From the NCBI GenBank assembly GCA_947592005.1, contig CANQDJ010000003.1, positions 1-64,000 of the forward strand: a stretch of 64,000 nt of DNA, written 5' to 3'. Below the pieces are notes generated by a model that worked only from the letters and a program-made list of their open reading frames with translations, was not told the DNA's origin and ran no database searches. Below are positions 13,190 through 22,034 of this stretch, piece by piece. The first letter of the stretch is position 1. Each line of letters opens with the position of its first letter. This DNA is from an uncultured Anaeroplasma sp. GTDB lineage: Bacteria > Bacillota_I > Bacilli_A > Acholeplasmatales > Anaeroplasmataceae. The position numbers were made by a program, and so were the translations under genes.

Positions 13190-13218
13190 TTGATTTACTG
13201 AATTATATGTTTTATAAT
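13190..13218 (+). promoter_or_regulatory. sigma-A-type promoter of opp operon
   Basis: TTGATT-N17-TATAAT. Confidence 0.65.
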
Positions 13219-13251: not shown

Positions 13252-15357
13252 ATGAAATTTAAAAAAATTGCATTGGCAGGATTCGCCGCTACTGCAGTAG
13301 TTGGATTGGCTTCTTGTAAAAAAGATGATACAGTCAACATTAACAAGACAGATGACGGCGTAATTACCATTCCAGATGGATGGACTGCCCCGGATGAAGA
13401 ACCATTTACAGGTGATATAAATAATCCGGCTGACGTTTATAATTATGTTATGGGGGATTATATGGAATACTATAATAATGCCCTTCAAGCGACTTCAGCA
13501 TCTGACAGATATTATTGGTTTGCCAAAGCGGAAGCCGAAATGTTGAATCAAGCAGTGTTGATTCCGATTCATACAGATGGTGGTAGATATGGATTTACTC
13601 GTGCCGCTTATGGATCAGCACCATTCTGTTATTGGGGAAATGAACCGGATCGATTGGATCAACTTGTTCTTGCTACAGATTTGGTGAAAAAAGAAGATAG
13701 AGAAACAATGAAAGCCAAATGGCAAGCAGAAAGAAATAAAGTTGCCGGATATTCTACCATTTCCGATGGAACTCACAAATCAGCGTATGATCCGTTAAAG
13801 GAATTGACGGCATTAGGCTATACACAAAGAAAGAACTATACAAGTGGTTTATCTACATGGCCTGAAACGTTTGATATTGCGAATACATATCAATCTAGTG
13901 ATTCACAACACTTGGTAAACTTTATGGATTATTTGATTGGATATGATAATGTCGGCTATATTACACCGGCTATTGCAACATCTTGGGAAACTTCAAGTGA
14001 CGGATTAACTTGGACGTTCCATTTAAGAGATGATGTAAAATGGGTAAAAGCAACCGGTGAGGAATATGCGACTGTTACAGCCAGTGATTTCGTATATGGT
14101 GTTCAAAGATGCGGTGAATTGGGTGCGACTTCCTATATGTTATCCGTATTGGAAAATGCTGACGAGTGGATGAACGGAGAAAAGCAATTTACAGATGTAG
14201 GAGTTAAAGCAGTAGATAATCAAACACTTCAATTTAAGTTGAAAGAAAAGACAGATTATTTCTTAACTTATTTAACATATAACTCTTTTGCCCCAATCAA
14301 TAAGGCATTTGTGGAAGAACAAGGAGAAAATTATGGTGTAGATAGAACGAATATTTTGTATTGTGGACCATTTATTTGTTCAGAAAACACTCCGGGTTCT
14401 TCTTTAAAATATGTTAAGAATACGAAATATTATAATGCGGATAAAGTTACTTTAGATGAAGTAATTTACGTTTATGAAGATGGTTCAAACCCAACGGAAG
14501 TTTATAATAAAGCCAAAGACGGAACGTATATCGGTGCTAGTTTATCCGAGGTTACTTTACCTTTGGCGAAAGCGGACGGAACGTTTGATACATATGGATA
14601 TGTTGGTAGTACAGATTATGGTATGACGTATTTCATGGGATTAAATGTAAATCGTACATCATATCATAGTGCTTATGCTGGAGAAGTTAATTCTGCAAAG
14701 ACAACTGCCCAACGAGAACTTGCCAAGAAGGCAATGTTAAATGCAAACTTTAGACGTGCTTTGGTTTATGCGTTCGATAAAGTTTCTTATCTAACACCAT
14801 CTACCGGTGCAGATTGTGCAAGATTGGCTATTCGTAACACATATACACCATATAACTTCGTTTCTACTTCCGCAGCAACGCATGGTTATAAAGCAAATAC
14901 TCCGTATGGCGATATGGTTTTAGGTGAAATGCAAGCCGCAGGAGCATTGGTAACAAACTTAACAGATGGTGTCAATGCTTACTATAAACCAGAATTGGCT
15001 AAATTATATTTGGAAAAAGCATTAGAAGAATTGGGAATTACCGAAACCATTTATTTGGATTGGCCTAATCTTGCTATTAGTCCGGTTATGTCAGCACAAT
15101 CTGCTAAATTAAAGAGTTCTATTGAGTTGGCTTTGGGTAAAGATAAAGTTACAATTAACTTCTTGGATTGTTCTACACCAGACTCTTACTATTCTTGCAA
15201 CTATTATGCTGAAATGTTCTCTGATGGTGGAATGCCTAACTATGATCTTGATGCATCAAGCGGTTGGGGTCCAGATTATGGAGATCCTCAAAGTTTCTTG
15301 GCTACAATGACTACTAGCGGTGATATGATTCATATAACTGGTATTGCAGCACAATAG
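13252..15357 (+). CDS. oppA: oligopeptide ABC transporter substrate-binding lipoprotein (OppA/AmiA family), apparently circularly permuted
   Basis: Lipobox VVGLASC; body TWPETFDIANTYQSSDSQHLVNFMDYLIGYDNVGYITPAIATSWETSSDGLTWTFHLRDDVKWV; C-term segment of AmiA-type proteins is found at N-term (RYYWFAKAEAEMLNQAVLIPIHTDGGRYGFTRAAYG...LVKKEDRETMKAKWQAERNKV). Confidence 0.9.
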   Translation: MKFKKIALAGFAATAVVGLASCKKDDTVNINKTDDGVITIPDGWTAPDEEPFTGDINNPADVYNYVMGDYMEYYNNALQATSASDRYYWFAKAEAEMLNQAVLIPIHTDGGRYGFTRAAYGSAPFCYWGNEPDRLDQLVLATDLVKKEDRETMKAKWQAERNKVAGYSTISDGTHKSAYDPLKELTALGYTQRKNYTSGLSTWPETFDIANTYQSSDSQHLVNFMDYLIGYDNVGYITPAIATSWETSSDGLTWTFHLRDDVKWVKATGEEYATVTASDFVYGVQRCGELGATSYMLSVLENADEWMNGEKQFTDVGVKAVDNQTLQFKLKEKTDYFLTYLTYNSFAPINKAFVEEQGENYGVDRTNILYCGPFICSENTPGSSLKYVKNTKYYNADKVTLDEVIYVYEDGSNPTEVYNKAKDGTYIGASLSEVTLPLAKADGTFDTYGYVGSTDYGMTYFMGLNVNRTSYHSAYAGEVNSAKTTAQRELAKKAMLNANFRRALVYAFDKVSYLTPSTGADCARLAIRNTYTPYNFVSTSAATHGYKANTPYGDMVLGEMQAAGALVTNLTDGVNAYYKPELAKLYLEKALEELGITETIYLDWPNLAISPVMSAQSAKLKSSIELALGKDKVTINFLDCSTPDSYYSCNYYAEMFSDGGMPNYDLDASSGWGPDYGDPQSFLATMTTSGDMIHITGIAAQ

Positions 15358-15380: not shown

Positions 15381-15408
15381 AAAGCGAAGATTATTCTTCG
15401 CTTTATTG
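15381..15408 (+). terminator. hairpin between oppA and oppB (partial terminator)
   Basis: aaagcgaaga ttat tcttcgcttt. Confidence 0.7.
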
Positions 15409-15436: not shown

Positions 15437-16993
15437 TTGAAAGGATATATATTAAAAAGAATTCTACATTCGATTATATCTGTTATAGTTGTAGTATTTA
15501 TTATAATGCTACTTGTCTTTCAACTTATGCACCGTGATCAAATTTTTATGGGGGATCCAAATATCCAAAAACTTTCGGATAATAAGAAAGTGGAATATCG
15601 CTATAATAAGTGGGAAAAATATGGTTATTTAAAATTGGTTACTTATGGAGATTATATTACGGAACTTGCAGAAGAACAAGGAGTAAAGAATGAAGATTTA
15701 TATAATTTGCCTGATTTGTCGGTAAATGATTCTTCTTCACAAACTGTTCTTGATTTTAAAGAAAAATATTCTAAAAAAGGATATAAAATCGTTCGATTGG
15801 ATAAAATAAAATCCAATGATAGTACGTTATTATTGGCTTATAAGGATTATAATATTTTTGCTAGATTATGGAATTTCTTTTCTCAAATGATCGTTTTTGA
15901 TACGACAAATTATATTAAATTATCCAATGATTTTATAGAACAGTATGGGGATATAGATAGAGGAATAAAGTTTTGTAAAGATCCAATTAACGGAGCCCCA
16001 TGTATTATGGGATATGGAACGAAGAATAGATATTTATTGTATTTTGATAAGAATTTTCCATTTATCCATCAAAATTTTGTAACGTTGAATTTCGGTATTC
16101 GATATACGGACGATAAGGATTTCTTTGAATATTTTTCCAGCGAACAAGGTTCGGATAAAGTGATGAAACAAAAATATCCGGGTAGTGGGGAAACTGTTGA
16201 AACGGCGGTAAATCTTCATGAAAGAAGATTCAAATATACGGAACTTACGGAGTTGGAGATTCAAAGATATGGAGAAAATGATCGGTATGTTTTGGCAGAT
16301 GAAACGTATAAGACAGGTATGTCTATGCTTGCTTATTCCTTTATAATCGGTATTATTGCTACATTCTTTGTTTATATTCTCGGAGTTCCTTTGGGAGTAT
16401 TGTTGTCTTTGCATAAAGATAAATTGGCAGATAAAATAGGAAATTTATATATTATATTTATAATGGCCGTTCCGTCATTGGCATACATTTATTTGTTCTA
16501 TATGATTGGAAATAGGGCATTCCATTTGCCTGTCATCTGGGGCTTGGGTAGTAATCCACATTGGTTAATTTATATTATGCCTATTGTGTCGTTGGCTTTG
16601 CCGTCTGTTGCCGGTATAATGAAATGGGTAAGAAGATATATGATCGATCAAATGTCGTCCGATTATGTAAAATTTGCTCGTTCACAGGGTTTATCTGAGG
16701 GCGAAATATTCAGAAAACATATATTGAAAAATGCGATTATACCAATTTCTCAGGGAATACCTGGCAGTATAATTGGTTGTTTGACGGGTGCGATTGTTAC
16801 TGAAAGAGTATATGGTGTTCCCGGAATGGGTAAACTTTTGACTGAAGCAATCAATAAAACGGATAACGCTACGATTGTTGCCATATCGTTTATATATGCT
16901 GTATTATCCGTTATCGCATTATTGATCGGTGATATTGTTATGGCAAAATTGGATCCTAGAATCTCATTTGCTACAGGGGGAGGTAGAAAATAA
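15437..16993 (+). CDS. oppB: oligopeptide ABC transporter permease (OppB/AmiC type, large extracytoplasmic loop)
   Basis: C-terminal BPD permease signature KFARSQGLSEGEIFRKHILKNAIIPISQGIPGSI. Confidence 0.92.
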   Translation: MKGYILKRILHSIISVIVVVFIIMLLVFQLMHRDQIFMGDPNIQKLSDNKKVEYRYNKWEKYGYLKLVTYGDYITELAEEQGVKNEDLYNLPDLSVNDSSSQTVLDFKEKYSKKGYKIVRLDKIKSNDSTLLLAYKDYNIFARLWNFFSQMIVFDTTNYIKLSNDFIEQYGDIDRGIKFCKDPINGAPCIMGYGTKNRYLLYFDKNFPFIHQNFVTLNFGIRYTDDKDFFEYFSSEQGSDKVMKQKYPGSGETVETAVNLHERRFKYTELTELEIQRYGENDRYVLADETYKTGMSMLAYSFIIGIIATFFVYILGVPLGVLLSLHKDKLADKIGNLYIIFIMAVPSLAYIYLFYMIGNRAFHLPVIWGLGSNPHWLIYIMPIVSLALPSVAGIMKWVRRYMIDQMSSDYVKFARSQGLSEGEIFRKHILKNAIIPISQGIPGSIIGCLTGAIVTERVYGVPGMGKLLTEAINKTDNATIVAISFIYAVLSVIALLIGDIVMAKLDPRISFATGGGRK

Positions 16994-17973
16994 TGGAATT
17001 AAGTGAATTAGAAACTAAAAGTGAAGATGAATTATTTGTATTACTGCCTGAATCTAATTTCAATCCGGAAAAAATTACTGCCCCACGTTATTCTTATTGG
17101 AAATCTGTATTTAGAGTGTTTTTTAAGAAGAAAACAAATTGGGTAATATTGGCTATATTACTAGTAATGTTGATTTTTACCTATTTGTATGCTCCGTTTA
17201 TCAAATTTAATACTTTGGATTATATGGTGAATCCCAATATATTGAATCCGCAAACTTATAATTTAAGTCCTTCTAAAGCAATTCGACAATTTGGATTTAG
17301 TTTAGAATATTGTTTGGGAACCGGTCCGAATGGAGAATCTTTGTTTAATCATATGTGGAAAGGGGCTCAAAACTCTCTTTCTCTATCGTTGATTTGTGCT
17401 GCGATTAACCTTTCTATAGGAATTATAGTCGGAGCGATTTGGGGTTTTTCCAAGAAAGTGGATACAATAATGATAGAAGTTTATAATATTATCGGTAACA
17501 TTCCGTATCTATTATTTATTTCTGTATTTGTAATGGTTGTCGGTACCGGATTCTGGAGTTTTGTTGCCGCTTTGACTGTAACCGGTTGGTTAGGAATTGC
17601 GTATTTTATAAGAACGCAAGTAATAATCATTCGTGATCGAGAATATAATTTGGCTTCTAAATGTTTGGGAACGAATATTTGGAAAATCGTTACGAGAAAC
17701 ATATTGCCGTTTTTGACATCGGTAATTGTTACGATTATCGCTACTGAAGTGCCGTCTTATATTTCTTATGAAGTATTCTTGTCTTATTTGGGTATTGGTA
17801 TGAATGCCAGCACGCCATCACTAGGAAGATTAATTAATACGGGACAAATTGTAATGTACACATATCCTGTTCAATTTATCGCTCCGGTTCTTTTGGCTTC
17901 GACACTAACCATCATTTTATATGTTGCCGGTCAAAATTTGGCAGATGCTTCTGATCCGAGAACACATATGTAG
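16993..17973 (+). CDS. oppC: oligopeptide ABC transporter permease
   Basis: BPD permease; DREYNLASKCLGTNIWKIVTRNILPFLTSVIVT; PSLGRLINTGQ. Confidence 0.92.
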   Translation: MELSELETKSEDELFVLLPESNFNPEKITAPRYSYWKSVFRVFFKKKTNWVILAILLVMLIFTYLYAPFIKFNTLDYMVNPNILNPQTYNLSPSKAIRQFGFSLEYCLGTGPNGESLFNHMWKGAQNSLSLSLICAAINLSIGIIVGAIWGFSKKVDTIMIEVYNIIGNIPYLLFISVFVMVVGTGFWSFVAALTVTGWLGIAYFIRTQVIIIRDREYNLASKCLGTNIWKIVTRNILPFLTSVIVTIIATEVPSYISYEVFLSYLGIGMNASTPSLGRLINTGQIVMYTYPVQFIAPVLLASTLTIILYVAGQNLADASDPRTHM

Positions 17974-17983
17974 AGGTGATACT

Positions 17984-19840
17984 ATGGAAGATAAAAAAGT
18001 ATTATTATCTCTTCGAAATGTAGAAGTGTCTTTTAAAGTCAGAGGTAGAACATTGAATGCGATTCGTGGCGTTGATTTAGATGTCTACGAAGGAGAATCT
18101 TTGGCTATTGTCGGTGAATCCGGTTCAGGGAAGTCTGTTTTAACGAAAACATTTTCGGGAATGTTGGATTCCAACGGATATGTCAGTAATGGTAGTATAG
18201 TTTATTATGATGATGAGTTGTCAAAGACCAATGCGAAAAAATCGAAATTCAATAAATTGATGTATTCTATTTTCTTAAAATCTTTGAATAAATTTTCAAA
18301 ATATGAATTTGGAAGTGAAATTTTTAATAAGATTTTCGATATAAAAGCGGAAATTCAAAGTAAAAAACAAGCCTCACAAGAAATTATTGAATCATATGAA
18401 AATCAAATCAATGATTTATTTTATGATCGAACAGAGAAATTCAATTATATTCAAACTATTGATAAAAAAGCCGTATATGAAGAAGGGCCATATGCCACAG
18501 GAAAAGAAGAATATTTGGCTATAAAAAAAGAAATAAAAGAATATGATTTGAAAATTAAAAATTTAAAGGCGGAATTGGCTGAAAAATCCAAAGAAGAAAA
18601 AATTAAATATAATCAAAATAAAGAATTACAAAACCAATATCAAACTATGTTACGGGAATTGAAAGAACAATATAAAACCGATATTAAAAAGGAAATAGCG
18701 GAAGATACCATAAAAAGAAACGAATGGATTTCCAAAGAATTGGTTTTATCTATTTCAAGATATCCTATCAAGAAAAAAATAAATGCATTAATTCATATTA
18801 TTTTTATCTTTCGTTCTGCTTTAAAGCGTGGTGTGGATATTTCGAATGAAGAAGTTTTGGATTCTTTATATGATAAGTATGCTTTTAGAGTGAAATATCT
18901 TGAAGAAGATGATGAAAAACTAGAAGGATACTGTAAATTGGATTTGGCAAAATTTAAATTAAATAGCGACTGGCAACAAATTCGTGGTGCTAAAGTTGCG
19001 ACAGTATTTCAAGATCCGATGACATCGTTAAATCCTATTATTACTATCGGTCAACAAATTATGTCTTGTATATTAAAACATCAAGATGTTACTCGGGACG
19101 AAGCAAAGAAAAAAGCGATAAATCTTATGGAATTGGTAGGAATTTCTGACGCAGAGAAAAGATTTAATGATTATCCATTCCAATATTCTGGTGGTATGCG
19201 GCAGAGAATCGTTATTGCGATTGCTCTTTCTTGTCAACCTCAAATTTTAATATGTGACGAACCGACGACAGCATTGGACGTTACGATACAAGCCCAAATT
19301 TTACGGTTGATTAAAGATTTACAAAAACAATTAGGATTTACAATCGTATTTATTACTCACGATTTGGGTGTTGTGGCAAATGTTGCGGATCGGGTTGTGG
19401 TTTTATATGCCGGTCAAATTGTTGAAATCGGAAAAGTAGAAGAAATCTTTTATGATCCAAGGCACCCATATACTTGGTCTTTGTTGTCTTCTTTACCGCA
19501 ATTATCTGTAAGAGGAGAAGAGTTGTTTTCTATTGTCGGGACACCGCCATCATTATATAATAAGATACAAGGAGATCCTTTTGCTCCGAGAAATCCATAT
19601 CGTATGGCAATAGATTTTGTCAAAGAACCACCGTTTTTTAAAGTTACCGAAACCCATTTTGCCAAAACATGGCTTTTGGATCCACGGGCACCTAAGGTGG
19701 AAAAGCCGGCAATTATTCAAAATTTGCATGAAAAATTGAGTGCGGCTTCGGAAAATACTATTGTTGAAGACAATCCGGAATCACCTCATAAGGAAGAACC
19801 AGAGGTAAAAGAAGATTTGACGGAAAGTGAGGGATTGTAA
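17984..19840 (+). CDS. oppD: oligopeptide ABC transporter ATP-binding protein with large insertion
   Basis: [12 protein letters not shown] Walker [15 protein letters not shown]-loop, YSGGMRQRI signature, [11 protein letters not shown] Walker B; ~250-aa insertion before Q-loop. Confidence 0.95.
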
Positions 19841-20859
19841 TGGAGGAAATTAAGGAAAAAGACAATGTTGTTTTACCGGATAAAGAGAATTTTTCTGAAA
19901 ATGAAAAGAACGAAGAAGATATACAAAAACAGGAAAGAGAAGTTTTATTGTCTTTGAAAAACGTAGATATTTGTTTTGGCAAAGGTAAAAAAACATTTAA
20001 AGCCGTCCGTAATGCCAGTTTTGATATTTACAAAGGAGAAACTTTCTCTCTTGTTGGAGAATCCGGTAGTGGAAAAACAACGATAGGTCGTGCAATTATT
20101 CGTATTAATCCCATTTCGGCAGGGCAAATTATTTTCAAAGGTAAAGTTATTTCCGGAAAATTATCTCATAAAGAAGATCGGGAAGTTGTAAGAAATATTC
20201 AAATGGTATTCCAAGATCCTGCAGCATCTCTAAATGAGCGGGCTACGGTTGAATATATTATTTCGGAAGGATTAAATAGTTTTAAATTGTATTCCAGCGA
20301 AAAGGAAAGAATGGAAAAAATCGAATCTATCGTAAAAGAAGTAGGATTATTACCTGAACATTTAACCAGGTATCCTCATGAATTTTCCGGTGGTCAACGC
20401 CAAAGAATCGGGTTGGCTAGATCAATCGTTATGCATCCGGAATTGATTATTGCCGATGAGCCGATTTCGGCATTAGATGTTTCTATTCGAGCCCAAGTGT
20501 TGAATTTATTAAAAAAATTTCAACGAGAATTGAATATGACATATTTGTTTATAGCCCATGATTTATCTATCGTTAAATTTATATCGGATAGAATCGGTGT
20601 TATATATAAAGGAGATATAGTAGAAATAGCCGAAGCGGAGGAATTATTTCAATTTCCACTTCACCCATATACGAAATCTCTTTTAAGTGCGATTCCTGTT
20701 CCGGATCCGAATATAGAGAAAAATAAAAAATTATATGTTTATGATCCGTCTATCCATGATTATTCCGAAGATAAACCGACATTACAAGACATTGGGCATA
20801 ATCATTTTGTTTTCTGTAATACAAAAGAATTTGAAGAATACAAAAAAATTAGAAGTTGA
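19840..20859 (+). CDS. oppF: oligopeptide ABC transporter ATP-binding protein
   Basis: [52 protein letters not shown]. Confidence 0.95.
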
Positions 20860-22034
20860 TTAGTATGGCAGTTGTTTTTACAAAAAAAGAAAAAAGAAGC
20901 ATTATTATCCGTATCGTTTTAATTATACTATTACTCGGTGTTATTATTGCAAGTATAATCGGTATTGTACATTCTGTAAAAGTCAAAAGAGGATTTAATC
21001 GGATTGAAAGTGATTATTCCACTTTACAATCTTTATCGGAAGAATTTGAATTTTATTATTATTTAGATGATGATAATCTTGGCAGTGTTTCCAAAAATCG
21101 GACAGAATATACAAAATTGTATAGTAGCAGTATAGAAAAGATATATATGCTTTTGGATTCTTATAATTCCTATGAAAATATAAATAATGTATATTATATC
21201 AATCATCATATCAATGAGGATATTCAAGTAGAAGAAATTTTATATGATTCCTTGCTCGAAATCTATCAATTAGATAAGACTACGTTATTATATGGTAATT
21301 TGATTGAATTTTGGGATAATCAATTTTATTCTATTGATGATCAACAAAAAAGATTAAATGATCCATTAAATAATCTAGTCCAAGCCCAAAAAATAGAAGA
21401 TTTTATTCAGTCATATAATACTATATCTTTGGAATTTAAAGAGAATCATACGATTCATTTACATGTTCCAACGGAACTTGTTTCAAAAATCAATATGAAT
21501 GAAACCGAACATTATTTGGATTTTTCTATATATCGGAATGCTATCATAATGAAATATGTGAAAAAAAGTTTCATTGATAAAGGATATATAGATGGATATA
21601 TCGTTTCTAATGATGGGTATGTTTTGTTTTTCGGTGGAAGAAAAAACATAACGAATTTTTCTATTTTCGATAACTATAACGGACATACTTCTGATATCGG
21701 CAGTTGTGATTTGTCCGATTGTACGGCGTTGGTTACTTTTTACGGTTTTCCTTTTACAAGTTTTTATCCATATTATGAGTTGGAGTGGGAAGGAGAAACG
21801 GTAAGAAGAGGAAGAATGATAGATGAAGATGGATATGCTAAAATGGATTTTGATGAGGTATATGTATATGGAGATATGGAGATGAATCGTCTTATTTTTA
21901 TAGGCAGTCATATTATTTTAGGTCAAAATATTGATTTTGATGGTTGTAATTATCTTTATATGAAAGATAAAACAATAACAACGAATGATTCAAATATTAT
22001 TGTGGATTCGTCTTATGAGGTTGTATATGAATAA
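20856..22034 (+). CDS. membrane-anchored ApbE-like protein, probably non-catalytic
   Basis: N-terminal [29 protein letters not shown]...[33 protein letters not shown] resembles ApbE N-terminal region; later [17 protein letters not shown] and [34 protein letters not shown] mirror ApbE NAGGN / HHIIDPKTG blocks in order but degenerate. Confidence 0.6.

Follow-up and report, generated by a model that had tools for sequence, protein, structure and literature searches.

The gene at 13252-15357 of the window (the whole 64,000-nucleotide stretch of DNA that was analysed) raises the question of how a peptide-binding lipoprotein might be built, and work, when its segments stand in an unusual order. The first-pass annotation had read the gene as an OppA/AmiA-type lipoprotein that is circularly permuted, with the family's C-terminal segment placed between a retained export signal and the usual mature N-terminus. 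The export signal is indeed there, as a signal peptide and a lipobox, and 701 aa is the size of a full-length protein, which agrees with the view that the gene was rearranged rather than shortened by deletion. The layout of the locus is given in Table 1.

Table 1. Features of the permuted gene and its operon in the window.
Feature	Coordinates	Strand	Details	Basis
Promoter-like TTGATT-17-TATAAT	13190-13218	+		promoter scan no better than chance
Shine-Dalgarno AAGGAGAGAG	immediately 5' of ATG at 13252	+	good match	direct reading
Permuted AmiA-type peptide-binding lipoprotein gene	13252..15357	+	701 aa, ORF intact	
Signal peptide and lipobox LAS-C	13252..13317	+	lipidation Cys22	sequence reading
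Tether, Cys22 to displaced block	13318..13422	+	~36 aa	spacing comparison with relatives
Displaced C-terminal block	13423..13743	+	residues 58-164	PDB alignment, profile, conservation, AlphaFold2
New linker, old C-terminus to old N-terminus	13744..13833	+	residues 165-194	conservation, AlphaFold2
Normal N-terminal and middle part	13834..15354	+	residues 195-701	Pfam, PDB alignment, conservation, AlphaFold2
Hairpin between SBP gene and oppB	15381..15404	+	10 bp	
OppB permease	15437..16993	+	AmiC-like extracellular region	
OppC permease	16993..17973	+		
OppD ATPase	17921..19840	+	~242-aa insert, residues 101-342	
OppF ATPase	19840..20859	+		

The Pfam model SBP_bac_5 (PF00496) matched residues 237-691 over profile positions 2-365 of 368 (144.9 bits, cut-off 32.4). 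As this profile terminates close to the cut, the Pfam match is unable to reveal a permutation, and NCBIfam equivalogs gave only partial matches to the protein. Searching the PDB with phmmer returned AliC, AmiA, AliB and AliD as best matches. Query residues ~201-690 aligned on the N-terminal ~500 residues of these proteins, and a weak, separate second domain placed residues ~62-162 on their last ~100 residues; in AliC chain numbering the main stretch covers 19-494 and the displaced stretch 515-618 (i-E 0.03 for the latter). Because the displaced stretch was weak in single-sequence comparison, we built a profile from canonical C-termini, using 27 unpermuted sequences alone so that the test was not circular. 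Its sole match among the 374 ORFs of the window was ORF 13252-15357, at residues ~65-162 (iE 6.7e-14). In 89/89 permuted relatives the same profile found its match at the N-terminal side (iE 1e-23 to 7e-13), and it matched none of 1,780 shuffled control sequences. On the chains of known structure, the aligned blocks together leave no large gap between them, and the cut falls near AliD 528-531.

The block order in the target is C-N-M. ORF 13252-15357 is thus circularly permuted: both segments are homologous to the parent, their order is exchanged and the fold is predicted to be complete. The PDB alignment and the canonical-only profile thereby uphold the permutation proposed at first reading, including the alignment of residues 62-164 to the OppA/AmiA C-terminus. 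Since it departs from the canonical segment order with both termini in lobe 1, the protein is, on sequence grounds, a member of a permuted sister group and not a canonical AmiA. Some limits had to be redrawn: the displaced block begins near residue 58, not 62, and the linker (~30 aa), which does join the old termini, includes a short conserved helix (181-187). Besides further helices and two strands, the displaced block contains the Ami-type C-terminal helix (H147-164) and the invariant pair W128-G129. Residues 195-701 stop shortly past the peptide-amine binding motif GWGPDYGDP (W672, D675). A lipobox pattern was found in 70 of the 89 permuted relatives. The spacing from the cysteine to the first block has a median of 44.5 residues in the permuted family versus 13 in canonical relatives, and long tethers are seen in mycoplasma-like canonical relatives as well.

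AlphaFold2, run on an alignment of 66 permuted sequences, predicted one compact SBP (mean pLDDT 90.8, pTM 0.89) in which the displaced block reached pLDDT ~82-98. The model has the bilobed fold with an extra domain, as also found by Foldseek, whose best PDB match was AmiA (E 5.6e-36), followed by AliD and AliB over ~530 columns. The TM scores of 0.59-0.65 by query length are what would be expected of a sequential aligner confined to the main block. When the block was deleted, mean pLDDT was 86.4 (on an alignment of 54 rows versus 66 for the intact protein), residues 446-465, 526-555 and 656-695 fell to about 51-75 and the strands 428-430, 459-464 and 666-672 disappeared. The residues that lose confidence fall within the region aligned to domain III, in lobe 2. 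The model thus supports an N-terminal block that makes lobe 2 complete and contributes strands to lobe 1 along with the Ami-type C-terminal helix, the aligned stretch being a predicted helix (147-164) that is now internal. The first-pass annotation had named an unrelated extra domain as the counter-case; the block is instead integral to the predicted fold, and lobe 2 degrades without it.

In AliD, lobe 1 comprises residues 29-63, 64-190, 191-296 and 583-617 and lobe 2 residues 297-582 (PMC11192437). Domain I is formed by 29-63 together with 583-617, so that the native N- and C-termini share a lobe (PMC11192437), as the first-pass annotation had assumed for cluster C binding proteins. By alignment (AliD positions were taken from phmmer as chain numbering plus 25), the new termini map near AliD 528-531, in domain III of lobe 2. 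The attachment of the lipid tether has therefore probably moved from lobe 1 to lobe 2. AliD W498 and D501 are the Trp and Asp that clamp the amino end of the peptide, and I603 lies in pocket P1 (PMC11192437). W672 and D675 correspond to W498 and D501 and are invariant in 66 sequences, and AliD G602-I603 aligns with G129-N130, adjoining the invariant W128. The cleft should thus comprise every piece, the displaced block included.

The gene order SBP-oppB-oppC-oppD-oppF is kept in permuted and canonical AmiA operons. The hairpin 3' of the SBP gene is a possible attenuator or processing site that may hold SBP mRNA in excess. The OppD insert lies between Walker A and the Q-loop, is lysine/glutamate-rich and probably coiled-coil, and was not present in the canonical AmiA operons checked; as a rule, OppD measures ~585-650 aa in complete permuted operons versus 354-384 aa in canonical ones. 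In the OppB and OppD trees, proteins of permuted operons stand apart from canonical ones (support 77 for OppB, which is weak, and 99 for OppD). Together with the OppD insert, this split looks as if the whole operon had been co-inherited. Since the alignment to the NCBIfam mycoplasma OppD model (561 aa) runs through the insert, similar inserts may occur in mycoplasma. Mycoplasma-like canonical operons of the source family (L168-L170) have a very long OppF ORF (553-926 aa), and in the window a 392-aa ORF at 20856-22034, which has no Pfam match, overlaps the end of oppF and is a possible further operon member.

The source genome carries one copy, the sole SBP of its family found there. The gene is present, in the same C-N-M order, in 12 of 23 other genomes of the genus; G018 and G023 of this genus have a canonical-order relative instead. 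A scan of 85,462 genomes, one per species, yielded 412 relatives, of which the best 80 were fetched for their order, and all 80 were permuted. These carriers were mostly from gut or rumen and mostly Clostridia with some spirochaetes; they included Acholeplasmatales, Lachnospiraceae (among them Butyrivibrio), Oscillospiraceae and Erysipelotrichaceae-labelled MAGs. The N-terminal block sought in relatives was thus found in 89 permuted proteins, and what had been presented as a single case is a large old family. Other relatives from Bacilli are in normal order. Among 392 genomes sampled from the source phylum, each further full-length AmiA-like protein that was checked proved canonical, except for the divergent L141. 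Very few additional permuted copies turned up in the phylum of a Butyrivibrio (399 genomes sampled) or in that of a spirochaete (198 genomes), indicating that the family is patchy. L141 (L194 1601-3526) is a divergent permuted AmiA-like lipoprotein from another family, lies outside any opp operon and has a very long branch. Mycoplasma OppA is canonical by profile, the C-block matching weakly at 787-883 of 896. None of the scanned loci carried the C-block at both ends, as a duplication intermediate would, and a viral structure library gave no match.

In a tree of 73 rows, with the blocks aligned separately, a branch with SH-aLRT 99 divided the permuted proteins from all others. An OppA-rooted tree, which leaves out L141 and the incomplete L007, recovered them as a clade sister to canonical AmiA-like proteins with moderate support (UFBoot 91, SH-aLRT 86). 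A single order change was obtained in 94% of its bootstrap trees. The placement of L141 is not secure. Because both OppA and AmiA have the canonical order, permutation is the derived state, and the trees favour one origin for it within the AmiA-like proteins.

A second permuted family, P0002 (L105-L107; also L189-L191), is of OppA type and comes from another family within the same order. Its N-terminal segment has its match in the C-terminal ends of OppA and DppE from B. subtilis, and its cut lies in the loop equivalent to the AmiA-like cut. The tree groups three permuted proteins beside their nearest relatives, the canonical L173-L176, with strong support. This permutation is independent of the AmiA-like one. 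In both the permuted form and L173-L176 the SBP gene lies 3' of oppBCDF; the permuted OppA thus replaced the normal protein in place. P0002 and the target share the same kind of permutation at an equivalent loop, a kept signal peptide and an opp operon; in contrast to the target, P0002 is an OppA sensu stricto with a linker of ~6 aa, and its unpermuted sisters are far closer to it than AmiA-like proteins are. A search of viral contigs for this second permuted family found nothing.

Taken together, the gene very probably arose by circular permutation from an AmiA-type ancestor and specifies a functional oligopeptide-binding lipoprotein that serves an Ami/Opp ABC importer. The sequence shows that ~105 residues of the old C-terminus, severed in the loop ahead of a helix (AliD ~528-531), now follow the export signal and precede the old N-terminus, and that the ~30-aa linker bridges the old termini, both in lobe 1 in AliD. 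In-frame duplication or fusion with later trimming is the likely route. The chain is predicted to fold as a compact two-lobed SBP. Peptide capture would be unchanged, to judge from the W672/D675 and W128-G129 equivalences, the lipid tether with its longer flexible spacer would sit on lobe 2 instead of lobe 1, and docking on the co-inherited OppB/OppC would be kept. Only tentatively do we suggest that the shift of the anchor to the other lobe might be a selected and recurrent change in peptide hand-over from tethered SBPs to their permease that took place two or more times at a single permissive loop, with the permuted form a distinct gut-bacterial transporter lineage having its own OppD insert.

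Other readings of the locus have to be weighed against this one. Pfam marks the middle domain only, and in pairwise comparison the block scores weakly against the PDB chains (i-E 0.03 to >1); both observations would suit a C-terminally truncated SBP with an unrelated or regulatory domain at its N-terminus. We rejected this very improbable reading because the canonical C-terminal profile matches the target at 6.7e-14 and 89/89 relatives at 7e-13 or better, because removal of the block degrades lobe 2 of the model and because the length is that of a full-length protein. The chance that assembly or binning rearranged a normal gene is practically negligible: although the source assembly has 76 contigs and MAGs make up most of the loci, one order recurs, with a conserved linker and operon, in 89 distinct proteins whose assemblies are independent, and the permuted locus L061 lies on a Butyrivibrio sp. 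VCB2006 contig without a MAG label. An artefact was rejected on these grounds.

It is unlikely that the permuted AmiA-like order arose repeatedly by convergence inside that family. The separate permutation in another OppA subfamily, the moderate clade support (91/86) and the very long branch of L141 would allow for it, yet one change is enough in both trees and is found in 94% of bootstrap trees, and permuted members have the linker motif and the OppD insert in common. We give somewhat less credit still to a protein that folds but serves as a sensor or decoy lipoprotein without a role in import. L141 does stand outside an opp operon, and TpMglB-2, a permuted SBP of Treponema pallidum, may double as a chemoreceptor (PMC4990184); against this, wherever the locus is long enough to tell, the gene nearly always opens a complete oppBCDF operon, it encodes the single SBP of its family found in the source genome, and the amine-binding Asp and Trp are invariant.

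Naturally permuted SBPs are barely documented, with one solved case from another cluster. In the PMC literature searched, which leaves subscription papers mostly outside so that absence is not proof, we found no report of permuted OppA or oligopeptide-binding (cluster C) proteins. The present data add a large permuted family that was hidden by a Pfam model ending near the cut, and homology-based annotation and modelling will mishandle many such gut-bacterial proteins. They also show that the loop was permuted a second time, independently, in proteins whose unpermuted sisters are close, and whether it matters which lobe of an SBP is tethered becomes directly testable. For engineered peptide sensors, the loop is a split site already proven in nature.

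With pneumococcal AmiA, AliA, AliB, AliC and AliD (PDB 8a42, 8qlj, 8qlh, 8qlc; PMC11192437) the target shares SBP_bac_5, cluster C membership, lipoprotein character and the three-domain fold, as well as the Ami-type C-terminal helix, the GW..D motif, the AmiC-like extracellular region of OppB and an operon with permease and ATPase genes. It differs in its permuted segments, a putative anchor at lobe 2 instead of lobe 1, a longer tether, an OppD partner with a 242-aa insert and a shorter, internal version of helix alpha19, which measures ~30 aa in canonical proteins. The solved precedent is TpMglB-2 (Tp0684) of cluster B, a lipoprotein with circular permutation that closes around the glucose it binds (PMC4990184). 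Its authors proposed a 'Cluster Bc' and suggested a link to tethering (PMC4990184). The idea that anchoring itself demands permutation is weakened here, as canonical AmiA-like relatives are lipoproteins too. Common to both cases are a naturally circularly permuted SBP lipoprotein and an occurrence in spirochaetes and gut Gram-positives (PMC4990184). TpMglB-2, however, is a cluster B (Type I) glucose binder in which strands from the N-terminus were transferred to the C-terminal end, with a fourth hinge crossing gained (PMC4990184), whereas in our protein C-terminal residues have moved to the N-terminus of a putative cluster C peptide binder; by fold and sequence it is cluster C and lacks the Type I glucose-binding fold of Cluster Bc. 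As TpMglB-2 demonstrates, an SBP can remain functional after permutation.
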